Shown here piece by piece: positions 1 to 14,269 of a stretch of DNA of 14,269 bases; position 1 is the first letter of the stretch, and each line of letters begins with the position of its first letter. The position numbers and the translations under genes were made by a program. The notes beneath the pieces are model-generated. The model worked only from the letters and a program-made list of their open reading frames with translations. It ran no database searches and had not been told where the DNA came from. The stretch is from Betaproteobacteria bacterium (GTDB taxonomy: Bacteria; Pseudomonadota; Gammaproteobacteria; Burkholderiales; SG8-41): NCBI GenBank assembly GCA_021300125.1, contig JAJTHX010000006.1:1-14269 (forward strand), read 5' to 3'.

Positions 1-1364
1 GGCGCCTGCGGCTGGGCCTGGTGGAAGGCGAGCACCTGATTGACCGCGGCTTCGTGCAGCGCCTGCAGCCGCGTGCGCGGCAGGGCGATGCGCCGCTCGC
101 GGCCGACCACTGTGAGGCCGGCCTCGGCATAGGCCGCGGCCGCGATTTCCGGGAGCAGGTTGTAGATGGCCTCGAAATGGGCGAGATCCAGCGGCCGCCT
201 GGCATCGCCGGCCAGTGCCTGCAGTGCGGCGCGCGGTTGCGCCGATTCCAGCGCTGCAAGTACGGATTCCCGCGACTTGCTGCGGCGTGATGCGGGCGGC
301 AGCGGGTCGATGATCACGCCGCCGCCAAGGGTGCGTACGGCCGACTGGTCGCGCAGGATGAAGCGGTCGCCATGCAGCGCCGTCACCGCTTCGTCGAGCA
401 CCAGCTGGGCGATGGCGTTTTCACCGGGGGCCAGCGCTTCGCCGCGGCGAAGCGATACGCGCGCGGTGACATCAGCGGTGGCGAGGTGCAGATGCACCGG
501 CGTCCAGTGCCTGAGCGGCCGGCTCTCGCCGGCAAGCATGGCAATGCGCACGTCGAGGCGCTTCGTCGGGCGGTGGATCGCCTCGTGCAGCACCCAGTCG
601 CCGCGGCGCACCGATTCGACGTCGGCGCCAGTCAGGTTGAGGGCGCAGCGCTCGCCGGCACGCGCTTGCTGGGCGGCCTTGCCGTGGATCTGGATACCGC
701 GTACACGGACTTCACGGCCGGCGGGCGAAATCACCAGCTTGTCGCCGGTTTTGACGCAGCCGTTGAACACGGTGCCGGTGACCACGGTGCCGCTGCCGGC
801 GATGCTGAAGGCGCGGTCGATCGCGTAACGCAGGTGCTGGCCTGCGGCATCGCGAGCGCCCTGTGACGCGGCTTCGCGCAGCAGCAGGGCCTTGAGTTCG
901 TCGATGCCGCTGCCGCTGACTGCGGACACCGGCAGCAGCGGCGCCTGCGCGAGCAGGGTGGGGGCGAGCAGGGCCTGCACCTGGGCGCGCACCTGCTCGA
1001 CGCGGGCGCCATCGACCCGGTCGGTCTTGGTGATCGCGACCGCGCCGCGCGGGATGCGCAGGAGGTCGAGGATCTGCAGGTGTTCGACGGTCTGCGGCAT
1101 CACGCCGTCATCGGCGGCGACCACCAGCAGCGCGTAGTCGATGCCGGAAACCCCGGCGAGCATGTTGCGGATGAAGCGTTCGTGGCCGGGCACATCGACA
1201 AAGCCGATGAGTCCGCCCCCGGGCTGCGGCAGATAGGCGAAACCGAGGTCGATGGAGATGCCGCGCGCCTTTTCCTCGGGCAGGCGGTCGGTGTCGGTGC
1301 CGGTCAGCGTGCGTACCAGCGAGGTCTTGCCGTGGTCGATGTGGCCGGCAGTTGCGACAATCAT
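1..1364 (-). CDS. selB: Selenocysteine-specific elongation factor SelB (C-terminus cut by window edge)
   Basis: SelB is the GTP-dependent factor that carries selenocysteinyl-tRNA to the ribosome at UGA codons marked by a SECIS hairpin. The frame stays open from the ATG at 1364 to the window edge, giving 454 codons of a protein that is usually about 610-640 residues, so most of the C-terminal SECIS-binding winged-helix region is missing. Visible motifs are the P-loop GHIDHGKTS (residues 7-15), DVPGH (57-61) and the guanine-specificity motif TKTD (112-115). A domain-2 segment [18 protein letters not shown] closely resembles E. coli SelB, as does the N-terminus [16 protein letters not shown]. 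The start codon overlaps the selA stop as ATGA, so the two genes are very probably translationally coupled. The TKTD variant of NKxD is normal for SelB and argues against plain EF-Tu. Confidence 0.96.
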
Positions 1365-2764
1365 CGGCTGGCCTTCAGGTGCTGCAGCTGGGTGACGAAT
1401 TCATCCTCGTGGTCGAGGCAGCGCAGGTCGAGCGTCAGCGTGCCGTCGCGGATGTGGCCGATCACCGGCACCGGCAGCGCACGCAGCGCGGCCGCCAGTT
1501 TGTTGAGGTTGCCTTTTTTTTCCGCCGGGGCGATGGCGAGGCCGCAGCTCGGCATGGAGTCCACCGGCAGCGCGCCGCTGCCGATCTGCGATTTGCAGTC
1601 GGTGATCTCGACCCGCCAGTGCCCGCCCAGTGCGGCAGCCAGTGCCGGCTGCACGCGCGCGGCCTGGGCTGCTATGTCGTCGCGGTCGCGGGTGAGCAGG
1701 CGCAGCGCCGGCAGTTCCTCGCGCAGTTTTTCCGGGTGCAGGTACAGGCGCAGCACCGCATCGAGCGCAGTCAGCGTCATCTTGTCCAGGCGCAGCGAAC
1801 GCTTCATCGGGTTTTTCGCGATGCACGCCATCAGGTCCTTGCGGCCCACGATCAGCCCCGCCTGCGGGCCGCCGAGCAGCTTGTCACCGCTGAAAGTCAC
1901 CACGTCGGCGCCATCGGCCAGCGTCTCGCGCGGGGTGCGCTCGTGCGGGATGCCGTAGTCCTCGAGGTTGATCAGCGAGCCGCTGCCGAGATCCACCAGG
2001 AAGGGCAGGTTATGTTGATGCGCGAGTGTCGCCAGGTCGGCCTCGGGCACTGCAGCGGTGAAACCCTGCACCACATAGTTGCTGGTATGCACCTTCATGA
2101 TCGCCGCGGTGCGCGGGGTGATGGCTTCGGCAAAATCCTTCAGGTGCGTGCGGTTGGTGGTGCCGACCTCGACCAGTTTCACCCCGGCGCGCGACATGAT
2201 GTCGGGGATGCGGAAGGCGCCGCCGATCTCGATCAGCTCGCCGCGCGATACCAGCACCTCTCGCTTGAGGCCCAGCGTATTGAGCACGAGGTAGACCGCC
2301 GCGGCATTGTTGTTGACCGCCACAGCCTTCTCGCCGCCGGTGAGTTCGTGCAGCCAGCGCTCGACATGGCTGTCGCGTTCGCCGCGCGCCCCGCCGTCGA
2401 GATCGAATTCAAGGTTCACCGGCCGCGTCATCGCCGCATACACGGCTTTGGCCGCGCTTTCCGGCATCACTGCGCGGCCGAGGTTGGTGTGGAGCACGGT
2501 GCCGGTGAGGTTGAATACCGGTTTCAGCGATGGCGCGCTGGTGCACGCGAGCTGCGCCGCGCAGCGCTGCAGAAAGCCGGTTTCGTCGTAGGGTGCTGCG
2601 CCGTCCTGCGCCAGGCGTTCGCGCTCCGCATCGAGGGCGGCACGCAGGGTTGCAGTGATGCGGGTGCGGCCATACTGGGCGATCAGCGCAAGGACTGCTT
2701 CGGTTCCGAGGAGCCGGTCCACCGCAGGCAACGCGCGACGCGCGGCTGGGGCGGGATTCAGCAT
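1361..2764 (-). CDS. selA: L-seryl-tRNA(Sec) selenium transferase SelA
   Basis: SelA is a cytosolic pyridoxal-phosphate enzyme that converts seryl-tRNA(Sec) to selenocysteinyl-tRNA(Sec) using selenophosphate from SelD. The 467-residue length matches E. coli SelA (463). Conserved blocks include LPAVDRLL near residue 12, [14 protein letters not shown] (85-98), VNNNAAAV (150-157), [15 protein letters not shown] (174-188) and [12 protein letters not shown], whose Lys295 should be the PLP-binding lysine. The ATG at 2764 is the only in-frame start before an upstream stop, and it lies at the expected distance from the first conserved block. The sequence before it shows no good ribosome binding site. 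It is first in an operon with selB (four-base ATGA overlap) and is divergent from the ABC exporter operon. selD and selC are not in the window. Confidence 0.97.
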
Positions 2765-2893
2765 GGTGGAGAGACGTGCCGCGGGACGCGGATCGTTGGG
2801 CGGGGCATGGCTGGAACAAGGCGCGGTCGTTGAGGCGGCAGTGTAGCCCAGCGGGGGGTGATGGCGCCAGCGAGCGGCTTAGGGCACCATTTC

Positions 2894-2907
2894 CTGATCT
2901 GCATCAA
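2894..2907 (+). promoter_or_regulatory. FNR/ANR-type binding site upstream of the ABC operon
   Basis: CTGAT-CTGC-ATCAA matches the FNR-family consensus TTGAT-N4-ATCAA at nine of ten defined positions. Its centre lies between 2900 and 2901. A -10-like TAGGAT at 2931-2936 would put transcription start at about 2942-2943, so the site would sit near -41.5, the usual activating (class II) position. Both the site and the promoter are predictions. The site could also influence the divergent selAB genes, but I found no suitably spaced -10 on that side. Confidence 0.5.
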
Positions 2908-2942
2908 GGGTGTGGGTAGTCCATGCGGAATAGGATCGGTCC

Positions 2943-3689
2943 ATGAATCTGACAGATCCGCTTGCAGAGAATCCGGCATCACCAGGGGCGCCGGTATTCC
3001 ACGTCCACGGCGTGAGCAAGGTGTATCACATGGGCGAGGTGGCCGTGCATGCCCTGCGTGGCATCGACCTCGATCTATATGCCGGCGAGCTGGTTGTGCT
3101 GCTCGGGGCCTCGGGCAGCGGCAAGTCGACCCTGCTCAACATACTTGGCGGCCTTGACGTACCGAGCAGCGGCGAGGTCTTCTACCTCGATCATGCACTC
3201 ACTGCCGCGTCCGAGGAGGAGCTGACGCGCTTCCGGCGGGAGCATGTCGGTTTCGTGTTCCAGTTCTACAACCTGATCCCCAGCCTCACCGCGCTCGAGA
3301 ACGTTGCACTGGTGACGGAGATTGCGCCACGGGCGATGCCGCCGGCAGAGGCGCTGGAACTGGTGGGGCTGAGGGAACGCCGCAATCACTTCCCCTCGCA
3401 GCTCTCCGGCGGGGAGCAGCAGCGGGTGGCTATAGCGCGCGCGGTGGCTAAGCGGCCCGATGTATTGCTCTGCGATGAGCCCACCGGGGCGCTGGATTAT
3501 GCGACCGGCAGGATTGTGCTCGAGGTGCTGGCGCGGGTGAACCGCGAGTTGGGCACCACCACGGCGCTGATCACCCATAATGCCGCGATCGCGGGCATGG
3601 CCGACCGTGTGATCCAGATGAGCAGCGGCCGCATCGTCACCACGGCGCGAAACACGAGACGCCTGACGCCAGCGGATCTGTCCTGGTGA
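2943..3689 (+). CDS. ABC transporter ATP-binding protein (LolD/MacB type)
   Basis: This 248-residue cytoplasmic ATPase drives the permease encoded next. It has a complete nucleotide-binding domain: Walker [10 protein letters not shown] (55-63), Q-loop glutamine 107 in VFQFYNLIP, signature LSGGEQQR (154-161), Walker B VLLCDEP (174-180) and the H-loop histidine 212 in LITHN. The [16 protein letters not shown] segment is typical of the MacB/LolD/FtsE class that pairs with FtsX-type permeases. An AGGA lies seven bases before the ATG, although the same bases can be read as a -10 hexamer (TAGGAT). The stop overlaps the permease start by four bases (GTGA). The substrate cannot be inferred from the sequence. 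Confidence 0.93.
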
Positions 3690-6049
3690 ACGCGCGGCAT
3701 CGCATGCTGCTGCGTGACCTGTGGCACCAGCGCGGCCAGCTGCTCGCCGCCGCGCTGGTGGTCGCCTGCGGAATTGCGTCATTCGTTTCGATGCGTCTGA
3801 CCTACGAGTCGCTGCTTGCAGCACGCGACAGTTATTACCGCGTGCACCGCTTTGCCGATGTGTTCGTGCACCTGAAGCGGGCACCGGATGTCATGGCGCA
3901 GCGGCTGCGCGAGATACCCGGCGTCGCCGAAGTGCACACCCGCGTGGTGATGGGGGTGACGCTGGACGTGCCCGGTCTTGCCGAGCCGGCCACGGGGCGG
4001 CTGGTGTCGGTGCCGGACCGCCGCCAGGCCATGCTCAACGACCTGTTCCTGCGCCGAGGTCGCTACATTGAGCCTGGCAGTACCGAGGAAGTCATCGCCA
4101 GCGAGGCTTTCGCAGCCGCCAACCGCCTCGATGTCGGAGACCGCGTCGGCGCGGTCATCAACGGGCGATGGAAGTCCTTGCGCATCGTCGGGATTGCCCT
4201 GTCGCCGGAGTTCATTTTCGAGGTCGGTCCGGGTGCGCTGTTTCCCGACAACCGCCGTTTTGGCGTGCTGTGGATGGGCCACCAGGCTCTGGCTTCGGCC
4301 TTCGACATGGACGGGGCATTCAACGACGCCGTGTTCGGGCTCGCCGCCGGCGCGGTCGTGCCCGATGTCCTGTCCCGCATTGATCTCGTGCTGGAGCGCT
4401 ACGGCGGGCTCGCGGCGTACGGGCGGGACGACCATGTATCGCACCGGTTCATCACTGACGAGATTGCGCAGAACCGGATCTCCTCGACCTGGATCCCGGG
4501 AATCTTCCTCGGCGTGGCGATGTTTCTGCTGCACCTCGTGCTGTCGCGGCTGGTATCGCTCCAGCGCACCCAGATCGGCCTGCTCAAGGCCTTTGGCTAC
4601 GGCCGAGGCCCCGTCAGCCTGCATTATCTGCAACTTGCTGGCGCAACGGTGTCGCTGGGCGTCGTTCTCGGAACCGGCGCCGGCCTTTATCTGGGCGAGG
4701 GGCTCACCGCGCTGTATTTGGACTATTACCGCTTTCCCGCCCTGCCGCTGGTGTTCAGTCCCGAGGTGGTGGGCGCCGGGGTCGGCCTCAGTCTTGTCGC
4801 TGCCGGGCTGGGTGCGGCAGGTGCGGTTGCCCGCGCGTTTGAATTGCCGCCGGCCGAAGCCATGCGGCCGGAGCGGCCCTCCAGTTTCCATCCAGGCGTT
4901 CTGGAGCGCACCCGGCTGCGGCGGCTGCTGCCGCCCGCAGGCCGCATGATTCTGCGCAGCATTGCGCGCCGGGGCTGGAAGTCGGTGCTTTCGGCGCTGG
5001 GCATCGCGTGCGCGGTCGGTCTGCTGGTGCTCGGCGGATTTTTCATGGACACCCTCGATTACATGCTGCGCGTGCAGTTCCAGGATGTGCAGCGCGACAA
5101 CGTCACGGTGTATTTCAACCAGCCGGGGTCCGCTGCAGTCCAGCATGACGTGCGGCACCTGCCCGGGGTGCTGCACGCCGAGCCGTTCCGTACCGTGCCG
5201 GCACGGCTGCGTTTCGAGCACCGCAGCCGCCGCACCGAGGTCACCGGCCTTGACGCCGGGGGCGACCTCTATCAGCTGCTCGACCGCAGGCTGCGCAGGG
5301 TCGGGCTGCCTGCCGACGGGCTGCTGCTCTCGCGCAAGCTGGCGGACGTGCTGCAGGTGGGCGCCGGCGATCGGGTGACGGTGGAAGTGCTGGAGGGCGA
5401 GCGCTTGGTGCGCAGCCTGGAAGTCGCCGGCGTCGTCGATGACCTGGTGGGCATATTCGCCTACATGGACCGCGCCGCGCTGAACCGGCTGCTGCGCGAG
5501 GATTCCGTGGCCTCAGGTGCGAGACTGAGGATTGATGTGCGCCAGTCGGCGCAGCTATACGATACGCTCAAGCATATGCCTGCGGTGGCGGGCTCGATTT
5601 TTCAAGAGGCTGCGCTTGACAGTTTCGAGCAGATACTCGACCGTAGCCTGCGCGTGTCCACGTTGATCAACGTGGTATTCGCCTGCGTCATTGCCTTCGG
5701 CGTGGTCTACAACGGCGCCCGGGTTGCTCTGTCTGAGCGCGGTAACGAGCTGGCGTCGCTGCGGGTGCTTGGGTTCACCCGGCGCGAGGTTGCCGCCATG
5801 CTGCTCGGGGAACAGGTGGTGCTCATGCTACTCGCCATCCCCTGCGGTTTTACCTTGGGGACTTGGGTGAGCTGGTTCCTGTCGATCCAGCTTGATACGG
5901 AGATGTATCGCGTGCCATTGGTGCTGACACCGGCGAGCTTCGCGTTCTCGGCTTTGGTCGTGATTGCGGCGGCCCTGGTTTCAGGCATTATCGTGGCGTC
6001 GCGCATTAACCGGCTGGATCTCATAGCAGTGCTCAAGACTCGGGAATAG
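3686..6049 (+). CDS. FtsX-family ABC transporter permease, duplicated-domain type
   Basis: This 787-residue inner-membrane permease appears to have two repeats of the FtsX/MacB permease unit. Hydrophobic segments lie near residues 17-36, 268-290, 315-340 and 360-384, then 432-455, 655-680, 707-732 and 748-772, so about eight membrane helices. Large extracytoplasmic domains occupy about 40-265 and 460-650. The cytoplasmic coupling segments are recognisable in each half: [16 protein letters not shown] (292-307) and [20 protein letters not shown] (683-702). The GTG at 3686 overlaps the ATPase stop; an internal ATG (residue 7) is an alternative start. The adaptor gene starts four bases after the stop. 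Permeases of this kind export lipids, lipoproteins, peptides or antibiotics, and nothing here decides which. Confidence 0.9.
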
Positions 6050-6053
6050 AGGT

Positions 6054-7217
6054 ATGGGGATACGCTGGCAAAAAGTGATCTACCTCCTGCTGGGCCTTGG
6101 CGTTACAGCGGTGTTCGCGCTGGCTTTCGTGTCCGATCCTGTCATGGTGGATGTCGCGATGGTCGCGCGTGGCGAACTGCAGGTGACCGTTGACGAGGAT
6201 GGAGAAACACGTGCGCGCGATCGCTACGTCATCAGCGCCCCGGTGGCGGGTCGGGTAAAGCGCATTGACTTGCGCGAAGGCGATCCGGTCCGGGCGGATC
6301 AGGTCGTAGCCGAAATCCGGCCGCTGCCGCTGTCGGCTCGGGAGCGCGATGAGCAGTTGGCGCGCATTACGGCCGCGCAGGCCCTGGCGCGTGAGGCGCG
6401 CGAACGTGCCCGCCATGCCGCTGCCGACCACGAGCAGGCGCGCCGTGAATTGCAGCGTGTCGAGAAGCTGGCCCGAGACGGTTTTGTATCTGCGCAGGCG
6501 TTCGAGCGGGCGCAGGTCTCCGAGACCACTGCGGCCAACGAGTGGTTGGCGCTGGATTTCCATGCCCGTTCCGCGGAGGCGGATGCGAGGTCAGCGCGCG
6601 CGGCGTTGATGGCGATCGGTGGCAGCGGGCTGCAGGGGGCCGTATCGCTGCGGTCTCCGATTGCGGGCCGCGTGTTTCGCATCAGCGAGCGCGTCGTGGC
6701 GCCTGGAGCCGTTCTGATGATGATTGGCAGCCCGGAGGTGCTTGAAATTGTGCTGCAAGTCCTGTCTGGCGAGGCGGTCAAGATCAAGCCCGGCATGCCG
6801 GTGTTGATCGGGGGTTGGGGCGGTTCCGGCATGCTGCAGGCCCGGGTGCGCCTGGTCGAGCCGTTTGCCTTCACCAAGGTGTCGGCACTCGGAGTCGAGG
6901 AACAGCGGGTAAATGTCGTCGCTGATTTCATGGAGTCGCCGCAGGACCTCGGCGACGGCTACCGCGTTGAGGCGCGCATCGTGCTTTGGAGCGGCCGCGA
7001 TGTGCTGAAGGTGGCATCAAGCGCGCTGTTCCGTCGCGGCGATGATTGGGCCGTGTTCGTGATGGACGGCCGGCACGCCCGCCTGCGGTTGGTGAAGCCG
7101 GGGCACCGAGCGCCCCTCGAAACCGAGGTGCTGGAGGGTCTGGTGCCAGGTGAGCGAGTAATAGTGCACCCGCCCAACGACATCGCAGACGGGGCACGCG
7201 TGCGCAGCCGGAGGTGA
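6054..7217 (+). CDS. Periplasmic adaptor (HlyD/MacA-like membrane fusion protein)
   Basis: This 387-residue adaptor should link the inner-membrane ABC transporter to the periplasm or to an outer-membrane channel. One N-terminal membrane anchor spans about residues 8-27. A biotinyl-lipoyl half-motif follows ([18 protein letters not shown], 62-79). A long Ala/Arg/Glu-rich helical hairpin runs from about 93 to 190, and the second lipoyl half is [18 protein letters not shown] (201-218). A beta-barrel region and a membrane-proximal C-terminal domain ([15 protein letters not shown]) complete the expected order. It is the third gene of the operon; the AGAGG before the ATG overlaps the permease stop and is unusually close. 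No TolC-like outer-membrane gene is in the window. MacAB or Dev-type exporters are the nearest analogues. Confidence 0.9.
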
Positions 7218-7269
7218 ACGGGGGCGGCGCACCGCACCGCAACAAGTCGCTACCAGCCGGGTTGCAGGC

Positions 7270-8040
7270 TTATTCCCACAGTCTTTCAGGTAGGGGCAGT
7301 CCTGCAAGCTGTTCTGGCGTGAGCGACCGGTCGGGGGTGATGCCGTTGCGTTCGAGCACGGCCGCGAGCTGCCGCGCGTGCTGGGCGCTGTGCCAGGTGG
7401 AGCGCTCGTAGAGCATGTAGATGGGCTGCATGCCGAAGAAGGTCTTGATCTTCTGCTGGCAGCTCTTGTCTTCGAGCTTGTTCCACCAGTTCTGCAGCCG
7501 TGCGATGATGGTATCGCCATAGCGCGCGATCTCCTCGCCGGTCATGAACGTGCCGTCCTGGGGCGGCACGTTGGCGAGCTGCACTGCGTATTCGACGCCG
7601 CCCTCGACCGATTCGAGGAAGGCTTCGCCGATGCGGAAGATGTGGTGGCACATCAGCCGGATCGAGCGGTCACGGTTGGGGATCACGCGCTCCAGCAGTT
7701 GCGCGTCGGGCATCTGGCGCATCAGGCGCTGCGCGGTCTGCAGGATCACGATCCAGCGCTTGATCAGCTCTTCCGGCGGCAGCGGCTTGTGGCCGGTGCC
7801 CTGGAGGCCGACGAACTCGGCGACGTCCTCGAGGTTCTGGCCAAACACGAACTGGTCGCCCTTGGCCACCACCGGCACGTTGCGCACACCGAGTTTGAGC
7901 AGCTGCTCGCGGCCGGCGGGGTCGTTCAGGACATCAATGGCCACGAAATCAATTTGTTTGCGCGAAAGAAACTCTTTCGCCCGGAGACAGCTGCTTCACC
8001 CAGGCTGGGTGAACAGGATGAACTTGTCGGCAGCGCCCAT
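7270..8040 (-). CDS. Selenocysteine-containing glutaredoxin-like / DinB-like fusion protein (in-frame UGA = Sec15)
   Basis: From the ATG at 8040 the frame encodes 256 residues with one in-frame TGA at 7998-7996. Residues 1-85 form a glutaredoxin/thioredoxin-like domain: strand KFILFTQPG, active site U15-S-S-C18, then LRAKEFLSRKQIDF and a cis-proline motif NVPVV (Pro56). The TGA sits exactly where the first redox cysteine belongs. Residues from about 90 resemble the DinB helical-bundle family, with H132/H133 in CHHIFR and H217-x3-H221 in WHSAQHARQL as probable metal ligands. Some DinB-fold enzymes are thiol S-transferases. GGAG lies five bases before the ATG, and a promoter-like pair lies upstream. 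A SECIS-like hairpin follows the TGA, and selA and selB are in the window. A caller treating TGA as stop would begin at the GTG at 7944 and lose the active site. Selenocysteine insertion is inferred; the frame and motif are seen directly. The substrate is unknown. Confidence 0.9.
7962..7980 (-). promoter_or_regulatory. Putative bacterial SECIS hairpin
   Basis: Read on the minus strand, GCGAAAGA (7980-7973), loop GUU (7972-7970) and UCUUUCGC (7969-7962) form a perfect 8-bp stem with a three-base loop. The stem starts 16 nt and the loop G lies 24 nt after the UGA. Known bacterial SECIS elements have a G in the first two loop positions at about this distance, and E. coli fdhF has an apical GU. 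No bulged U in the 5' arm, as in fdhF, is evident. The hairpin is inside the coding region (codons 21-27). Confidence 0.78.
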
Positions 8041-8045
8041 GATGA

Positions 8046-8049
8046 CTCC
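8046..8049 (-). promoter_or_regulatory. Ribosome binding site that fixes the selenoprotein start
   Basis: GGAG on the minus strand lies five bases before the ATG at 8040. It supports a start upstream of the in-frame TGA rather than the GTG at 7944. Confidence 0.75.
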
Positions 8050-8076
8050 ATGCAAGGCGGGTGGAAGGGGAAGTTA

Positions 8077-8105
8077 AGACTAATTCGGGCGGCGTTGGGC
8101 GTCAA
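8077..8105 (-). promoter_or_regulatory. Sigma70-like promoter of the selenoprotein gene
   Basis: On the minus strand TTGACG (8105-8100), a 17-base spacer and TAGTCT (8082-8077) predict transcription start near 8070 and a leader of about 30 nt. The -35 is strong and the -10 weak. The -35 box overlaps that of the divergent promoter by one base. Confidence 0.45.
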
Positions 8106-8123
8106 GGAACGCAGTGCTATAAT
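8095..8123 (+). promoter_or_regulatory. Sigma70-like promoter of the glutathione S-transferase gene
   Basis: TTGGGC (8095-8100), a 17-base spacer and a perfect TATAAT (8118-8123) predict transcription start near 8130, about 32 nt before the ATG. The -10 is consensus; the -35 is poor, which suggests help from an activator. Confidence 0.6.
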
Positions 8124-8161
8124 TCGAGCGCAATTCGCGACACCCTCCTTCCGAAATCCAT

Positions 8162-8767
8162 ATGCTGAAGCTGCTCGGGACTGCCACCAGTCCCTTCACC
8201 CGCAAGGTGCGGGTTGTCCTCGCCGAGAAACGCATGGAGTGCGAGTTCGTCGTGGATGCGCCGAACACGCCGCAAAGTGTGGTGGTGCGCCACAATCCGC
8301 TTGGCAAGATTCCGGTGCTGATCCTCGACGACGAGCACAGCCTCTTCGATTCGCGCGTGATCGTTGAATACCTCGACAATGCGAGTCCCGGCAACCGGCT
8401 GATTCCCGCCGAGAAACGTTCCCGCATCCAGGTGCGGCGCTGGGAGGCGCTGGCCGACGGCTGCCTCGACGCAGCGATCGCGTTGGTCAACGAAAAAAAG
8501 AAGCCGGCGGAGCAGCAGTCGGCCGACTGGATCCTGCGCCAGCAGGGCAAGGTCGATCGCGCGCTGCAGGCGATGGCTGACGAGCTTGCGGCAAAAGCCT
8601 GGTGCGCCGGGGATTTTTTCACACTCGCCGACATTGCCGTCGGCTGTTGTCTGGCTTGGCTCGAACTGCGCCTGCCCGCCATTGCCTGGCGCCAGAACCA
8701 TCCCAACCTCGCGCGGCTTGCCGACAAGCTCGCGCAGCGTCCCTCGTTCCGCGATACCGCGGCCTGA
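8162..8767 (+). CDS. Glutathione S-transferase family protein (YibF-like)
   Basis: This 201-residue cytosolic protein has the standard two-domain glutathione transferase layout. The thioredoxin-fold N-terminal domain begins MLKLLGTATSPFTRKV, with Ser10 at the likely catalytic position. It continues with NPLGKIPVL (cis-Pro51) and FDSRVIVEYL (62-71), whose Asp-Ser pair normally contacts the glutathione gamma-glutamyl group. The helical C-terminal domain carries the N-capping motif DFFTLADIAVGC. The overall pattern is like E. coli YibF; the substrate is unknown. There is no convincing Shine-Dalgarno sequence before the ATG at 8162, but the alignment of the first strand supports this start. It is divergent from the glutaredoxin-DinB selenoprotein and ends directly against the mnmA stop codon with no spacer. 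Confidence 0.92.
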   Translation: MLKLLGTATSPFTRKVRVVLAEKRMECEFVVDAPNTPQSVVVRHNPLGKIPVLILDDEHSLFDSRVIVEYLDNASPGNRLIPAEKRSRIQVRRWEALADGCLDAAIALVNEKKKPAEQQSADWILRQQGKVDRALQAMADELAAKAWCAGDFFTLADIAVGCCLAWLELRLPAIAWRQNHPNLARLADKLAQRPSFRDTAA

Positions 8768-9916
8768 TCAGTTTCCGGGGAGGGCTTCGGGCGGGCAGCC
8801 GCCGTCCAGCGGCAGCGCGGGCGGCGCTTCGCGCGCCGACTCGATGATGCCGCCGCCGAGGCAGACGCGGCTTTCGTAGATCACCACCGACTGGCCCGGT
8901 GTCACCGCCCACTGGTTCTCGGAAAAATCGACCACGCAGCCTTCGCGGTCCGCCCGCGCCAGCGAGCAGGCCGAATCACGCTGGCGGTAGCGCGTTTTTG
9001 CGCCGTAGACCCAATGCGTGCGCGGCGGCTCGCCGCTGACCCAGCTGACATTGACCGCGGTGAGCTGGTCGGAGAGCAGGCGCGGGTGGTCGTGCCCCTG
9101 CACCACCACCAGACGGTTGTTGGCCATGTCCTTTTCCGCGACGTACCAGGCTTCGCCGTCGCCATCGCGGGACCCGCCGATGCCCAGTCCCTGGCGCTGG
9201 CCCAGGGTGTAGAAGGTGAGGCCCATGTGGCGCCCCACGCGGCGGCCCTCGGGGGTCACGATGTCGCCGGGATTGCCCGGCAGGTAGCGGTTGAGGAACT
9301 CACGGAACGGGCGCTCGCCGATGAAGCAGATGCCGGTGGAGTCCTTCTTGTCGTGGTTGGGCAGACCTTCGCGGCGCGCGATCTCGCGCACCTCGCGCTT
9401 GTAGAGCGTGCCGAGGGGGAACAGCGTTTTTGACAGCTGCTGCTGGTTCAGGCGGTGCAGGAAGTAGCTCTGGTCCTTGGTGCCGTCCTCGGCCTTGAGC
9501 AGCTGGTGCAGGCCGTCGACTTCGCGCACCTGGGCATAGTGGCCGGTGGCGATGCGGTCGGCTCCCAGGTTGATCGCGTGGTCGAGGAAAGCCTTGAACT
9601 TGATCTCGGCGTTGCACAGCACGTCGGGGTTGGGCGTGCGGCCGGCTTTGTACTCGCTGAGGAACTCGCTGAACACGCGCTCCTTGTACTCGGCGCTGAA
9701 GTTGACCGCTTCGATGTCGATGCCGATGCGGTCGGCGACGGCCACCGCGTCAACAAGATCCTGGCGCGAGCTGCAGTATTCGTCGCTGTCGTCATCCTCC
9801 CAGTTCTTCATGAACAGGCCCGCGACCTCGAAGCCCTGCTGTTTGAGCAGCAGCGCCGCGACCGAGGAATCGACGCCGCCGGACATGCCGATGACGATTT
9901 TCTGTTTGCGGCTCAT
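8768..9916 (-). CDS. mnmA: tRNA-specific 2-thiouridylase MnmA
   Basis: MnmA makes 2-thiouridine at wobble position 34 of Lys, Glu and Gln tRNAs, using ATP and sulfur relayed by the Tus system. The 382-residue protein has the PP-loop [10 protein letters not shown] (10-19). It also has the catalytic cysteine 101 in [14 protein letters not shown], the persulfide-carrying cysteine 197 in [13 protein letters not shown], and the C-terminal CLGGGII. About 27 residues follow CLGGGII, a Pro-rich extension ([18 protein letters not shown]) that looks dispensable. The ATG at 9916 overlaps the nudJ stop as ATGA, so the two genes are probably translationally coupled. This matches the nudJ-mnmA order of E. 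coli. Confidence 0.97.
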
Positions 9917-10386
9917 GCTGGGTTCCGGTCAAAGTGGTGGATCGCCTGCAGCGGATAGCGCTGGCCGGCCAGATGGTCGTCCACGCAGCGCTGCAGCAGC
10001 GGGCTGCGGTGGCGGTCGGCGCAGGCGCGGATTTCGCCGGCGCTCATCCACAGCGCGCGGCGGATGCCGGCGTCGAGCTGCAATCCCGGCCTGGGCTCGG
10101 ACACGGTGCCGGTGAAGGCGAAGCGCAGGTAGGTCACGCCATCGCCGGGGTGCGCATGCTGGTAGATGCCCAACAGCGCGTTCGGGGTGAAGTCGCGGGC
10201 GGATTCCTCGAGGGTTTCGCGGATCACGGCTTCGATCAGCGATTCTCCGTCCTCAAGATGCCCGGCCGGCTGGTTGTAGCGGATGCCGTAACGGGTGTCT
10301 TCTTCGACCAGCAGGAAGCGGCCGTCATGCTCGATCACCGCGGCGACGGTGACATTGGGTTTCCATTGGTGCTCACGCGGATTCAT
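9913..10386 (-). CDS. nudJ: Nudix hydrolase NudJ (phosphatase, HMP-PP/thiamin-PP type)
   Basis: This 157-residue Nudix enzyme hydrolyses phosphate from nucleotide or pyrimidine diphosphates; E. coli NudJ acts on thiamin precursors. The Nudix box [20 protein letters not shown] (residues 42-61) has every metal-binding glutamate. Flanking blocks [20 protein letters not shown] and GQRYPLQAI are close to E. coli NudJ (YmfB), and the neighbour mnmA is the same as in E. coli. No Shine-Dalgarno sequence precedes the ATG. Instead TAAAAT lies eight bases before it and could be a -10 box for a nearly leaderless transcript. The gene starts downstream of a strong terminator that isolates it from the peptide gene before it. 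Confidence 0.93.
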
Positions 10387-10443
10387 GCGGCCGTATTTTA
10401 ACGGCCGGCCGTCCCGGGACGGGAATGCGGCAAAACGCGGGCG

Positions 10444-10470
10444 AAAAAAAAGCAGGGCCGAAGCCCTGCT
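10444..10470 (-). terminator. Rho-independent terminator after peptide gene 1
   Basis: On the minus strand an 8-bp stem AGCAGGGC/GCCCTGCT closes a UUCG tetraloop and is followed by a T-run (complement of the A-run at 10444-10451). The structure lies 20 bases after the stop codon of the small peptide gene. Confidence 0.93.
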
Positions 10471-10489
10471 TTCGAGATCCAGCCGGAGA

Positions 10490-10609
10490 TTACTTCTTCT
10501 CGGCTTTTTTCTCGGCTTTTTTCTCGTCTTTCTTGTCGGCAGCGAAAGCCGGCGAGACGGAGACGATCGAGAACAGGGCGGCCACGAAGGCGGCGAACAG
10601 TTTGGTCAT
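10490..10609 (-). CDS. Small secreted Lys/Glu-rich peptide 1
   Basis: This 39-residue product starts MTKLFAAFVAALFSIVSVSP and has a clear Sec-type signal peptide ending AFA. The predicted mature part is only about 16 residues, almost all Lys, Glu, Asp and Ala, ending in repeats of AEKK. GAGG lies before the ATG at 10609 with a five-base spacer, and a UUCG terminator follows the stop. The longer frame starting at 10705 is rejected, because it would hide the signal peptide behind a Pro-rich tail without a ribosome binding site. A paralogue with the same ribosome-binding segment lies directly upstream. I do not recognise a characterised family. A periplasmic role such as a helical, highly charged stress peptide is a guess. 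Confidence 0.78.
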   Translation of the reverse strand: MTKLFAAFVAALFSIVSVSPAFAADKKDEKKAEKKAEKK

Positions 10610-10663
10610 GATTTCCTCATTTTTGGTGGATTGACCGGGTGGATCCCGGAGCCCCGCCGGAAA

Positions 10664-10689
10664 CATGCCGGCCGGAAGTGGCCGGCATG
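10664..10689. repeat. 10-bp inverted repeat in the leader of peptide gene 1
   Basis: CATGCCGGCC (10664-10673) and GGCCGGCATG (10680-10689) are perfect complements around a six-base loop. There is no T-run on either strand, so it is not a simple terminator. It lies 55 bases before the peptide 1 start and could be an RNA hairpin in the leader or an operator. Confidence 0.6.
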
Positions 10690-10723
10690 AGGCGTTGCAG
10701 GCCACACTGTAACAATCCGCTCC

Positions 10724-10759
10724 AAAAAAGAAAAGGCAGGGGGGTACCCCCCTGCCTTT
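10724..10759 (-). terminator. Rho-independent terminator after peptide gene 2
   Basis: A perfect 28-base palindrome (10732-10759, arms AAAGGCAGGGGGGT and ACCCCCCTGCCTTT) is followed on the minus strand by a T-rich tract interrupted by one C (complement of 10724-10734). It lies 17 bases after the peptide 2 stop codon. Confidence 0.9.
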
Positions 10760-10776
10760 CCCAGAGAAATGCGAGA

Positions 10777-10908
10777 TTACTTCTTCTCGGCTTTTTTCTC
10801 TTCTTTCTTCTCGGCCTTTTTCTCTTCCTTCTTCTCGGCGGCAACGGCCGGGGCGATGGCGACGGTCGAGAACACGGCGGCGATGATGGCGGCGAACAGT
10901 TTGTTCAT
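10777..10908 (-). CDS. Small secreted Lys/Glu-rich peptide 2 (paralogue of peptide 1)
   Basis: The frame from the ATG at 10908 encodes 43 residues, starting MNKLFAAIIAAVFSTVAIAP with a signal peptide ending AVA and a mature tail of EKKEEKKAEKK-type repeats. The start region AATGAGGAAATCATG is identical to that of peptide 1, and both proteins begin M-T/N-K-L-F-A-A, so the pair arose by duplication. Each copy has its own terminator, which suggests separate transcripts and possibly different control. The predicted mature peptide is about 20 residues and strongly charged, with no Cys and no aromatic residue. Function unknown. Confidence 0.76.
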   Translation of the reverse strand: MNKLFAAIIAAVFSTVAIAPAVAAEKKEEKKAEKKEEKKAEKK

Positions 10909-10923
10909 GATTTCCTCATTAAT

Positions 10924-10935
10924 GGTTGATCAACC
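10924..10935. promoter_or_regulatory. 12-bp palindrome before peptide gene 2
   Basis: GGTTGATCAACC is a perfect palindrome 15 bases before the ATG of peptide 2. A second hairpin (GACCGA/TCGGTC, 10953-10968) lies just upstream in the leader. They may be an operator and a leader RNA structure; no factor can be named. Confidence 0.35.
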
Positions 10936-11010
10936 AGGCTGTTTGAGCCCTGGACCGAAAAGTCGGTCAGAGCCAATAACGCCGGCTATCGGGGGCGGTT
11001 GACAGCCGGG

Positions 11011-11036
11011 GGAGGGATTTCGTCAGGAATCCCTCC
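11011..11036. repeat. Inverted repeat spanning the rluE stop codon
   Basis: GGAGGGATT (11011-11019) and AATCCCTCC (11028-11036) form a 9-bp stem around an eight-base loop that contains the rluE stop (11023-11025). No T-run follows, so it may be a 3'-end stabiliser rather than an intrinsic terminator. Confidence 0.55.
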
Positions 11037-11604
11037 GTCTGGCGCGACTGAAAAAATTATCATTTATTATCAATGACTTATGATTTCCCGGGGGAAGGCC
11101 GTCGATGGACCAGGGCCCCACGCTGTAGCGGATCAGGTGCAGGGTGGGCAGACCCACTGCAGCGGTCATCCGTCGCACCTGGCGGTTCTTGCCCTCACGC
11201 AGGGTGAGTACGAGCCAGCTGGTGGGGATGTGCTGGCGCACCCGGATCGGCGGTTGCCGCGGCCATAGCCACTCCGGTGCCTCTGCGATGCGGACTTCGG
11301 CCGGCAAGGCCCGGAAGTCGCCCAGGTCGATGCCAGCCCGCAGCGGAGCCAGCGCCTCATCCGTGGCGGCGCCATCGACCTGGGCCCAGTAGGTCTTGGC
11401 CATCTTGTGGCGGGGATTAGCGATCTGATGTTGCAGCGCACCATCATCGGTCAGCAGCACCAGGCCTTCGCTGTCGGTGTCCAGCCGGCCGGCCGGGTAG
11501 ACGCTGGGCTGGTCAATGAACTGCCTCAGCGTGGGCTTGTCGCCCGAAGGGCTGAACTGGCAGATCACGCCGCAGGGCTTGTTGAACAGGATCAGCGTGG
11601 CCAT
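11023..11604 (-). CDS. rluE: 23S rRNA pseudouridine synthase RluE
   Basis: RluE isomerises a uridine (2457 in E. coli numbering) of 23S rRNA in the peptidyl transferase region. The 193-residue protein belongs to the RsuA/RluB/E/F family but lacks the N-terminal S4 domain. The catalytic motif is AGRLDTDSEGL with Asp42; LILFNKPCGV (4-13), WLWPRQPPIRVRQHIPTSWL and EGKNRQVRRMTAAVG match E. coli RluE closely. The last 17 or so residues are encoded by an unusually AT-rich patch (about 11050-11085). There is no Shine-Dalgarno sequence; TAGAAT lies six bases before the ATG at 11604. The neighbours nudJ and mnmA match the E. coli order, here with two peptide genes inserted. Confidence 0.95.
   Translation of the reverse strand: MATLILFNKPCGVICQFSPSGDKPTLRQFIDQPSVYPAGRLDTDSEGLVLLTDDGALQHQIANPRHKMAKTYWAQVDGAATDEALAPLRAGIDLGDFRALPAEVRIAEAPEWLWPRQPPIRVRQHIPTSWLVLTLREGKNRQVRRMTAAVGLPTLHLIRYSVGPWSIDGLPPGNHKSLIINDNFFSRARRRDS
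11056..11072. repeat. AT-rich direct repeat ATTATCA-TTT-ATTATCA inside the rluE 3' end
   Basis: Two exact copies of ATTATCA at 11056-11062 and 11066-11072 repeat at a 10-base period, one DNA turn, in an otherwise GC-rich region. The half-sites resemble GATAAT units of a Fur box, but the spacing is not the usual one. It lies about 150 bases upstream of the peptide 2 start. Confidence 0.4.
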
Positions 11605-11648
11605 GTGGCGATTCTAGTGCGGTGTGACGGGAGCCCTGCGGCTGCCGC

Positions 11649-11680
11649 AAAAGACAACGCCCGCGGTTGCGGGCGTTGTC
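11649..11680 (-). terminator. Rho-independent terminator after the 458-residue gene
   Basis: GACAACGCCCGC (11653-11664) and GCGGGCGTTGTC (11669-11680) form a perfect 12-bp stem with a four-base loop, followed on the minus strand by TTTT. It starts 33 bases after the stop codon at 11714-11716. The T-run is short, but the stem is very stable. Confidence 0.88.
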
Positions 11681-11713
11681 GGTGGTTCTGCGGCCTGTGG
11701 GGCCGGATGGGGT

Positions 11714-13090
11714 TTACTTGCTGCCCCAGGGCTTGATGGCCTCTTTCAGCTTGTTGTAGCCATCGAGGTAGCGCGGACGCTTGCCGGCGTAGATCTTGTC
11801 GAAGGTCGCGAGCTGGGCATCGAGCCAGGCCGCGAGTTCCTTGTTGCCGGGGTTGGCCGCCTTGTAGGCCTCGTTGATCAGCACGAAGTGGATGCGCGGA
11901 TCGTAGGGGTCCTTGGTGCCGCCGACGGTTTCGTCGCCGGCGAGCAGGCGCATCAGCATCGCGTCAGCCGAGCCGAGGGTCTGTTCGTAGATCGGCGCGC
12001 CTTCCATGCGGTACATGACGCTGGTCATGTCCTTGCCGTTGGTCATGGTGAAGCCCATTTCCTTCCACACGTCGGCCATCTTGCGGCCGGTCTTGGCGTG
12101 GTCGAGCACCATCTGGCCCCATTTGCGCAGCACATCCGGCGCGTCGGCCATCAGGTCGGTCAGGCGGTCGCCGTCGAGGTCGGTCGAATAGACGATGCAC
12201 TCGCGCTGCTCGATCATGTCGTGCAGCAGCAGGCCGAAGTTGGTGTCCGAGATGTGCTCGTAAATGTCGCCGCTCCAGGTCTCCATGCCTTTCTTGAAGT
12301 CCTTGGGCAGCAGCGCGACGATGGCGTCGACATTTTCCTTGTGCTCCTCGTAGGCGTCCACGGCGTACTGGCGCTTGAGCTTGAACTGGGTGCCCTGGAT
12401 CAGCCAGCGGAACAGGCCCGCGTTGACCGCGTCTTCCTTGGCCTGGGTCGGCTTGGTGGCCACACGGCCGATGCAGCCGCGGTCCTTGACCAGCTGCAGG
12501 AACAGGCGCGCGGCATAGGCCATGCGCACGCCGGGGGTGTTCATTTCCGAATGGATGTTGCCGGTCTCTTTCTCCACCTTGAACTTCTTGTTGTCCTGAG
12601 AGTAGGGCAGGCCGGGCATGAAGCGTACGTTGGTGATCGAGCCGTAGGGGCGGACATTGCAGTACACGCCGGCGGCGGTTCGCAGCGGGGCGTTGGCCGA
12701 CTTGCCGGCGACGACGACTTTCTTGCCGCCGTCATTGACCATGAAATCGCCCGCGGTGGACCATTTCAGACAGGTGTAGTCCATCTTGCCGAACCACTCC
12801 AGCGACTTCAGCTTGGTGTCATGGCGGAACTGGGCCATCATCGGAACGCCGAGGAAGGGCAGGCCGAGCACATCGAGCGCCATGATGGTGCCGTTCAGGG
12901 CGAAGGTGTCGGTGAGCGCGTGGGCAACCGGATTGACGCCCCCGGCGAAATTGCCGCCTTCCCAGATGATCGCGTCGCTGATGCCGCGCGGCTGGGTCTT
13001 GGAGCGCTTGAACACGCTGTCCAGGTATTTGAAGAGGTCGCCGCCGTTTTCTTCCTGCGCGATTTTCAGCAGGTCCAGTTTTCCGCTCAT
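11714..13090 (-). CDS. Unrecognised 458-residue cytosolic protein
   Basis: I do not recognise this family. The protein has no signal peptide, no membrane segment, no P-loop and no GxGxxG dinucleotide motif. Notable stretches are WEGGNFAGGVNP (43-54), four scattered cysteines (107, 144, 206, 298), an Asp-rich TDLDGDRLTD (303-312) that could bind a metal ion or a phosphosugar, and GSADAMLMRLLAGDE (373-387). GGAG lies seven bases before the ATG and a strong terminator follows the stop. Codon use is like its neighbours, so it is a resident, probably well-expressed gene. As I recall, several betaproteobacteria carry icd (isocitrate dehydrogenase) beside the csp-clpS-clpA genes, but this protein does not resemble either isocitrate dehydrogenase type. 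It is probably an enzyme. Confidence 0.88.
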   Translation of the reverse strand: MSGKLDLLKIAQEENGGDLFKYLDSVFKRSKTQPRGISDAIIWEGGNFAGGVNPVAHALTDTFALNGTIMALDVLGLPFLGVPMMAQFRHDTKLKSLEWFGKMDYTCLKWSTAGDFMVNDGGKKVVVAGKSANAPLRTAAGVYCNVRPYGSITNVRFMPGLPYSQDNKKFKVEKETGNIHSEMNTPGVRMAYAARLFLQLVKDRGCIGRVATKPTQAKEDAVNAGLFRWLIQGTQFKLKRQYAVDAYEEHKENVDAIVALLPKDFKKGMETWSGDIYEHISDTNFGLLLHDMIEQRECIVYSTDLDGDRLTDLMADAPDVLRKWGQMVLDHAKTGRKMADVWKEMGFTMTNGKDMTSVMYRMEGAPIYEQTLGSADAMLMRLLAGDETVGGTKDPYDPRIHFVLINEAYKAANPGNKELAAWLDAQLATFDKIYAGKRPRYLDGYNKLKEAIKPWGSK

Positions 13091-13287
13091 TTAAGGTCTC
13101 CGTTCCGATTGGGGCATGCAAGATGGGCGCGCAAGGGCGCCGGGTGGGGCTTGCGGGCGCTGGCGGGGCCCGCGGCCGTGACCGCCTGCACCGTTCAAGA
13201 CGGCCGGCAGGTCAAGGAGGCGATTATCGCATTATTTGCCGGGCCTGCCAGAGGCTTGCCAGCCTTGGGGCAGGCGGCACAGGGCGT

Positions 13288-13318
13288 AAAAAAGCCCGCG
13301 CCGGAAGGCGCGGGCTTT
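13288..13318 (-). terminator. Rho-independent terminator after the cold-shock gene
   Basis: AAAGCCCGCGCC (13291-13302) and GGCGCGGGCTTT (13307-13318) form a perfect 12-bp stem with a four-base loop, followed on the minus strand by a T-run (complement of the A-run from 13288). It lies 48 bases after the stop codon. Confidence 0.92.
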
Positions 13319-13366
13319 GCCGTGCAGGGCCGCGAACCCGGAAGGGCGCGCGGCGGAAAAGCGTGT

Positions 13367-13570
13367 TCAGGCTGCTTGGATATTCGAGGCCTGTTTGCCC
13401 TTCGGGCCCTGGGTGACTTCGAAGGAGACTTTCTGGCCTTCCTTGAGCGTCTTGAAGCCGCTCATCTGGATGGCCGAGAAATGCGCGAAGAGGTCTTCGC
13501 TGCCGTCATCGGGGGTAATGAAGCCGTAGCCTTTGGAGTCGTTGAACCATTTCACAGTGCCAGTTGCCAT
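13367..13570 (-). CDS. CspA-family cold-shock protein
   Basis: This 67-residue single-domain cold-shock protein binds single-stranded RNA and DNA and probably acts as an RNA chaperone. RNP1 is KGYGFI and RNP2 is DLFAHF; the [18 protein letters not shown] start and [15 protein letters not shown] are typical. The ATG at 13570 is chosen over an in-frame start at 13654 because the family begins at this methionine; AGGCAGG lies upstream. The predicted leader is about 117 nt, as in cold-induced csp genes. It sits divergent from clpS; in E. coli cspD is next to clpS, but the sequence does not tell whether this is a CspD orthologue. Confidence 0.95.
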
Positions 13571-13693
13571 ATGCCTGCCTTGATAGAAAAGCGGATGGGC
13601 TCCGCGATTTGTTCGAGTTCCAAGGATCGCACCGGCCAAAATCTGGTATAGCACTGGTCTTGCGATGAAGCCTGAACCCCAACACCCGACTGC

Positions 13694-13722
13694 TTTCTAG
13701 GTTATTTGTGCGGGAAAGTCAA
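13694..13722 (-). promoter_or_regulatory. Sigma70-like promoter of the cold-shock gene
   Basis: TTGACT (13722-13717), a 17-base spacer and TAGAAA (13699-13694) on the minus strand predict transcription start near 13687, leaving a leader of about 117 nt before the ATG. Confidence 0.55.
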
Positions 13723-13783
13723 GTGCCGGCAGCGGTGCCCCCGGATGGGTCCGGCAAGCCCGTTTTTGGTGCCATTTCGGCAC

Positions 13784-13811
13784 TTGAAAATTTCAGGATT
13801 CCAGACACAAT
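13784..13811 (+). promoter_or_regulatory. Possible sigma70 promoter of clpS
   Basis: TTGAAA (13784-13789), a 16-base spacer and CACAAT (13806-13811) predict transcription start near 13818. The match is moderate. A small hairpin GTGCC/GGCAC lies just upstream at 13769-13783. Confidence 0.4.
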
Positions 13812-13861
13812 AGTCGCGCAGTCCCCATTGATTGAACACGGCATTCCCGACCTCACCAGGC

Positions 13862-14170
13862 ATGGCCAATCGGCAGCGTGAAGACACCGTCCTTGAGGCG
13901 AAGCGTAGCAAGACCAAGCCGCCCCCGATGTTCAAGGTGCTGCTGCTCAACGACGACTACACTCCGATGGATTTCGTGATCGGGGTATTGCAGCGGTTTT
14001 TCGGTTTGAACCGCGAGCGCGCGACCCAGGTCATGCTCAAGGTTCACCGCGAGGGCATGGGGGTTTGCGGTATCTTTCCCCGCGATGTTGCAGCGACCAA
14101 AGTCGAACAGGTAAAGTCGTACGCCAAGCAGCACCAGCATCCGTTGCAGTGCGTGATGGAAGAAAATTGA
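13862..14170 (+). CDS. clpS: ClpS, adaptor of the ClpAP protease
   Basis: ClpS binds proteins with N-degron residues and hands them to ClpA for degradation by ClpP. The 102-residue product has a flexible N-terminal tail, then [20 protein letters not shown] with the Asn-Asp-Asp segment that lines the N-degron pocket, and [23 protein letters not shown] and HPLQCVMEE as in other ClpS proteins. The ATG at 13862 gives the usual length; an in-frame TTG at 13832 would add ten residues. The ribosome binding site is weak (AGG close to the ATG). clpA starts 22 bases after the stop, so the adaptor and unfoldase are co-transcribed as expected. Confidence 0.96.
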
Positions 14171-14192
14171 GACCAGCCCAGGAACCGACACC

Positions 14193-14269
14193 ATGATTGC
14201 CCAGGAACTCGAAGTCAGCTTGCACATGGCGTTTATGGAGGCGCGGCAGAAACGGCACGAATTCATCAC
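14193..14269 (+). CDS. clpA: ClpA, ATPase subunit of ClpAP (only the N-terminus is in the window)
   Basis: Only 25 codons are present, beginning MIAQELEVSLHMAFMEARQK, which is the highly conserved start of the ClpA N-terminal domain (the ClpS-binding domain). AGGA lies before the ATG with a suitable spacer. The gene continues beyond the right edge, and its AAA+ modules are not visible. Position directly after clpS confirms the call. Confidence 0.93.
   Translation, partial: MIAQELEVSLHMAFMEARQKRHEFI

Follow-up and report, generated by a model that had tools for sequence, protein, structure and literature searches.

Can a TGA in the middle of a bacterial reading frame mark a catalytic residue instead of the end of a protein? 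This question arises in a stretch of 14,269 nucleotides, here called the window, from Betaproteobacteria bacterium (NCBI GenBank assembly GCA_021300125.1, contig JAJTHX010000006.1, positions 1 to 14,269). On the minus strand of the window lies a gene joining a glutaredoxin domain to a DinB-type domain (Grx-DinB), and its frame is broken once, by a TGA. We conclude that this gene almost certainly encodes a selenoprotein in which UGA is decoded as selenocysteine (Sec). We predict a selenium-containing glutaredoxin-DinB because the UGA lies where distant relatives have their catalytic Cys, because a near-invariant hairpin sequence accompanies it and because the Sec machinery is at hand. Overall, the locus is very probably best explained as a Grx-DinB gene whose UGA specifies Sec15 of a U-S-S-C motif in what is likely a thiol-handling metalloenzyme. 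A first-pass annotation of the sequence had already proposed a selenoprotein, and our analysis supports that interpretation while adding the hairpin, the linkage to sel genes and the breadth of the family.

The TGA and its counterparts in relatives

The gene reads from ATG to TAA over 256 codons, with the TGA at codon 15 as its single interruption (Table 1). Both this lone break and the GGAG five bases ahead of the ATG are as the first-pass annotation had described them. With the TGA read as Cys, Pfam searches recovered the glutaredoxin model PF00462 (E 3.4e-13; 50 bits against a gathering cut-off of 22.9) and, behind it, the DinB_2 model PF12867 (27.4 bits against 24.8), in keeping with the DinB-like domain predicted to follow the redox domain. 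Ser-Ser-Cys comes directly after the TGA inside the glutaredoxin stretch, so that the TGA occupies the first position of a CxxC motif, where the first-pass annotation had placed it. A mechanical list of open reading frames (ORFs) contains a 224-residue ORF starting at GTG 7944, the truncated product expected of standard annotation.

Relatives share the TGA, far too often for chance. Within the GTDB family of the window's genome (G000), 67 of 74 genomes contain matches, up to four per genome in some. Exactly one in-frame TGA is present in 101 of the 103 matches spanning residue 15, from 66 genomes; the remaining two are short glutaredoxin hits at 27-31% identity. A divergent group at 25-28% identity carries the TGA as well. 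An order-level sample gave matches in 57 of 300 genomes, many solely over a short glutaredoxin stretch, and its full-length matches have TGA in families f1, f3, f6 and f13 and Cys in f11, f17 and f24. At phylum level, a sample of 398 genomes gave matches at E 1e-15 in two (G000 and G499), a count that is possibly too low because at most six candidates were scored per genome.

The site of the UGA is held by Cys in homologues. Among 63 loci from the genome_contigs collection, eight Cys forms (L081-L084, L086-L088 and L090) read GCSSC or GCTSC, and a Cys-form query returned 1589 proteins; PF00462 is present in nearly all of the 120 matches listed, and a DinB-type domain in many of them. The first-pass annotation had called for a search for GCSSC homologues and for other TGA-containing homologues: the former exist and the latter are abundant. 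It had also named loss of the N-terminal domain in homologues as a sign against a selenoprotein, and we found that domain conserved. A tree built from 94 distinct proteins (81 Sec forms, 13 Cys forms) requires three Sec/Cys changes, although its deep order is unsure because of long branches.

We then considered the RNA around the TGA. Shortly 3' of it, the mRNA is able to fold as GCGAAAGA-GUU-UCUUUCGC, a stem-loop resembling a selenocysteine insertion sequence (SECIS). Of the 81 distinct Sec forms, 80 have the sequence CGAAAGAGU(U/A)UCUUUCG at a constant offset; none of the 13 Cys forms has it. Synonymous divergence (pS) is 0.018 in codons +6 to +11, compared with 0.645 in the eight codons upstream, 0.766 in codons +1 to +5 and 0.660 in codons +12 to +60. 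Cys forms encode the Lys-Glu-Phe-Leu of this segment mostly with other codons (AAG, TTC, and CTC or CTG), GAG being common to both forms. All 81 Sec forms have Ser as the following residue, as against 1 of the 13 Cys forms. Four proteins at 25-28% identity (L128, L129, L130 and L138) have the same TGA and a near-identical hairpin sequence despite differing greatly as proteins, with UAU instead of UUU in two of them.

Several properties of the hairpin weigh against its reading as a SECIS. Its fold energies are unexceptional: when each gene was recoded synonymously with its own codons, the z-scores had a median of -1.34 for the 81 Sec forms and -0.17 for the 13 Cys forms, and the window gene itself scored -0.31. 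The energy z-scores are not significant, and we therefore rejected hairpin energy as proof of a SECIS. There is no covariation, because the core is nearly fixed. In addition, L142, the only Sec form in the count that lacks the common motif, carries a different sequence at the hairpin site; its genome (G499) has both SelB and the selenocysteine tRNA (tRNA-Sec), so its insertion element may differ. No Rfam entry matched at the site of the TGA and hairpin. A loop common to this hairpin and a selD hairpin looked likely by eye and was dropped when RNAfold gave a different structure.

Selenocysteine machinery and genomic neighbourhood

We surveyed the Sec machinery in 38 chosen genomes (32 Sec-form and 6 Cys-form) and 14 control genomes. 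The RF01852 gathering score of 47 bits did not discriminate, because 37 of the 38 genomes and 5 of the 14 controls passed it; we used 68 bits for tRNA-Sec instead, since the matches listed fall at either at least 68.4 or at most 51.6 bits. By this measure, 31 of the 32 Sec-form genomes have tRNA-Sec, as do three of the six Cys-form genomes. SelB exceeds its cut-off in the same three Cys-form genomes, in 2 of 14 controls and in 31 Sec-form genomes, the exception among the latter being G060, whose SelB pieces lie on two contigs. Counting G499, each of the two is found in 32 of 33 chosen TGA-form genomes, and the incomplete G000 alone is without a clear tRNA-Sec. Of the 32 Sec-form genomes, 30, among them G000, have a SelD match over the cut-off that itself contains a TGA; G016 yielded no more than a fragment, and in G075 no match reached the cut-off. 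Looking for SelA, SelB, SelD and tRNA-Sec alongside the gene, we found selA and selB in the window and SelD in G000. Three Cys-form genomes (G308, G174 and G337) have SelB and tRNA-Sec, yet carry the Cys form of Grx-DinB and a SelD without TGA, and show no TGA-containing match to two formate dehydrogenase models.

Both selA and selB are present in the window, which favours the selenoprotein reading of the first-pass annotation. The two genes lie downstream of Grx-DinB on the same strand, and the recurrent order is mnmA, a divergent glutathione S-transferase (GST) gene, Grx-DinB, selA and selB; the stretch ahead of selA differs in length between loci. A downstream selA on the same strand was found in 31 of 50 loci (L031-L080, within the available DNA of up to 4 kb) and in all seven f13 loci (L107-L113, 44-46% identity). 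Proteins of 44-93% identity, in families f1, f6 and f13, show this linkage to selA-selB. A Grx-DinB gene shares its contig with tRNA-Sec in 27 of the 32 Sec-form genomes, the distance being about 10.5 kb in G015.

Table 1 Location of the Grx-DinB gene, its parts and selected neighbours in the window
Feature	Position	Strand	Basis
Glutaredoxin-DinB selenoprotein gene	7270..8040	-	ATG to TAA, 256 residues, predicted Sec15
In-frame TGA, predicted selenocysteine	7996..7998	-	TGA in 101/103 family matches covering the site; 13 distinct forms that are more distant have a Cys codon
GGAG, ribosome-binding-like	8046..8049	-	Five bases upstream of ATG
Glutaredoxin domain, residues 8-65	7846..8019	-	Pfam PF00462
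DinB_2 domain, residues 102-225	7366..7737	-	Pfam PF12867; His133/His217/His221 invariant
SECIS-like hairpin GCGAAAGA-GUU-UCUUUCGC	7962..7980	-	Loop GUU 7972-7970; fold and synonymous freeze
selA, selenocysteine synthase	1361..2764	-	TIGR00474, 574.6 bits vs 267.9
selB, selenocysteine-specific elongation factor, cut by contig end	3..1364	-	TIGR00475, 388.6 bits vs 242.25
Glutathione S-transferase (PRK10357)	8162..8767	+	NF007682, 187.5 bits vs 181; divergent neighbour in many relatives

Other neighbours vary. In the window, the space between Grx-DinB and selA holds a set made up of an ATP-binding cassette (ABC) transporter ATPase, an FtsX-MacB permease and HlyD on the opposite strand (2943-7217); elsewhere it contains other genes, such as an amidase in L119, or spans about 0.2 kb (L031). 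The divergent GST is one that we take to be YibF. Neither Pfam (E <=1e-5) nor NCBIfam (E <=0.01) gave a match for a 458-residue ORF (11714-13090, minus strand) that recurs in the syntenic locus L119. Over a cold-shock gene (13288-13658, minus strand), a cspA thermoregulator-like match reaches 68.3 bits, below the gathering score of 78. Paralogues and Cys forms neighbour genes for TctC, MmgE/PrpD, FAA hydrolase, 2-hydroxyacid dehydrogenase, aconitase, Iso_dh, PdxA and others, which hint at organic-acid catabolism and at no single pathway; a maleylpyruvate isomerase-like role is a lead only.

Alternative readings and proposed function

Could the TGA be something other than a Sec codon? The simplest alternative takes it as a true stop, with a DinB-like protein that lacks the catalytic motif starting downstream, for example at GTG 7944. 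Databases and the ORF list portray the family in this way: homologues from the protein collection measure 205-238 residues among the matches listed (120 of 3215), and six sequences begin after the TGA. Yet the first downstream start codons are scattered from codon +14 to +82 over the 81 Sec forms, the GTG at codon +18 (7944) occurs in 1 of 54, selection acts at the protein level on the codons ahead of the TGA, and the shortened form would be left without its first strand as well as its motif. We consider a downstream start very improbable. A pseudogene, or a sequencing or assembly error in one metagenome-assembled genome, might be suspected from the fragmented assembly of G000 (422 contigs, 79.85% complete). 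This idea has a negligible chance of being correct, refuted as it is by the same TGA in 66 family genomes and beyond the family, at identities as low as 25%, in frames that are otherwise intact. Reassignment of TGA under another code, or readthrough by a near-cognate tRNA, would not be told from Sec by a frame that stays open when TGA is read as X. On this point, 9 of 12 listed genes on the contig end with TGA, the residue aligns with Cys, and the Sec machinery co-occurs, with SelD likewise containing a TGA; we regard this option as hardly credible. On the evidence of relatives, start scatter, TGA stop use and Sec machinery, we rejected all of these in favour of UGA decoding as Sec.

What might the selenoprotein do? 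His133, His217 and His221 are invariant in 14 aligned sequences, two of them within an HxxxH motif. Judged by spacing, they are putative equivalents of the conserved H67, H160 and H164 of BstA (PMC5815605). We propose that SelB and tRNA-Sec would read the UGA with help from the 3' hairpin. The Sec15 selenolate, with Cys18 as resolving thiol, would attack a disulfide, a glutathione adduct or an electrophile. Meanwhile, the DinB bundle would bind a divalent metal through the three His residues and could position or activate a low-molecular-weight thiol or substrate, as in the DinB/STL S-transferases. In these bacteria, the thiol in question would be glutathione. Thiol/disulfide chemistry coupled to a metal-binding bundle would fit the invariant U/CxxC and the three invariant His residues, and a thiol transferase or reductase of this type is a reasonable possibility that falls somewhat short of an even chance.

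Other functions can be envisaged for the same selenoprotein. It may act as a plain NrdH-like redox glutaredoxin whose DinB part binds a partner or metal without catalysis. Glutaredoxin, YruB and NrdH models match its glutaredoxin domain at scores below their NCBIfam cut-offs, and a thioredoxin-reductase-like gene, itself below the NCBIfam cut-off, follows selB in L119, with a related gene in L137 by clustering. Against this stands the invariance of the three His residues and of most of the ERxTWHSAQHARQ motif across the 14 sequences, and we find a purely redox role somewhat unlikely. Alternatively, the protein could serve selenium metabolism, delivering or protecting selenium for SelA, SelB or SelD; such a role would explain why the gene adjoins selA-selB in f1, f6 and f13. 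But Cys forms persist in three genomes without SelB over the cut-off or a clear tRNA-Sec, paralogues are located elsewhere, and co-transfer of a client with sel genes also accounts for the linkage (PMC1794560); we consider this role unlikely.

Relation to known families and the Sec trait

Grx-DinB resembles several known systems and coincides with none of those compared. It shares a DinB fold (by model) and three conserved His residues with the DinB/STL thiol S-transferases (BstA/YfiT and mycothiol S-transferase) and maleylpyruvate isomerase; it differs from them in having its own Sec/Cys redox domain. GST-like alignments over the whole model had a high root-mean-square deviation and were left unused. 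With the selenoprotein glutaredoxin of a 2026 table of 119 bacterial selenoprotein families it has in common a PF00462 domain with Sec first in UxxC; that row gives PF00462 alone, whereas Grx-DinB is DinB-fused and linked to selA-selB (PMC13188914, Table 1). The UXX-star glutaredoxin-like selenoproteins (NF041212, NF041211, NF041114 and NF047338) are similar in the glutaredoxin domain, but their 70-71-position models are without a DinB part, and Grx-DinB lies below every curated cut-off (43.1 bits to NF041212, against 66). Indeed, no model in NCBIfam (release June 2026) reaches its cut-off on the protein, and DinB is named in no row of the 119-family table (PMC13188914). A literature search on selenoproteins or selenocysteine with DinB found nothing related by title and opening of the abstract; supplements, subscription papers and preprints lay outside its scope, and an earlier report is possible.

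A selenoprotein gene beside sel genes has a precedent. In the Sec-decoding alpha- and betaproteobacteria and Pseudomonadales studied previously, fdhA beside selA-selB-selC, encoding the formate dehydrogenase FdhA, was described as the only selenoprotein gene (PMC1794560); here, the sel neighbour is Grx-DinB. We found a TGA-containing TIGR01553 match in 6 of 22 Sec-form genomes (G023, G034, G062, G064, G068 and G078), and none with a stop among the TIGR01591 matches listed (E up to 1e-60). The other 16 genomes have no TGA-containing match to these two FdhA models, which were the selenoproteins searched for. As a TGA-containing formate dehydrogenase occurs in just 6 of 22, Grx-DinB may rank among the main selenoproteins of these genomes, perhaps together with SelD. 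A bolder joint proposal is that Grx-DinB sustains Sec decoding in this betaproteobacterial group, replacing formate dehydrogenase beside selA-selB, and that its selenolate is a built-in thiol cofactor of the DinB metal site, serving within a single polypeptide as mycothiol or bacillithiol does for other DinB enzymes; we think this unlikely as a whole.

If Grx-DinB is what we predict, selenoproteins would gain a family whose domain pairing is absent from the 119-family table (PMC13188914), and this in bacteria whose sole described selenoprotein was FdhA (PMC1794560). Among the matches listed, its homologues in public data are shortened forms. The protein would unite the redox chemistry of Sec with a fold found in metal-dependent thiol transferases, and related bacteria with Sec and Cys forms offer a direct test of what selenium contributes. 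Its position by selA-selB would bear on what retains the Sec trait in a genome.
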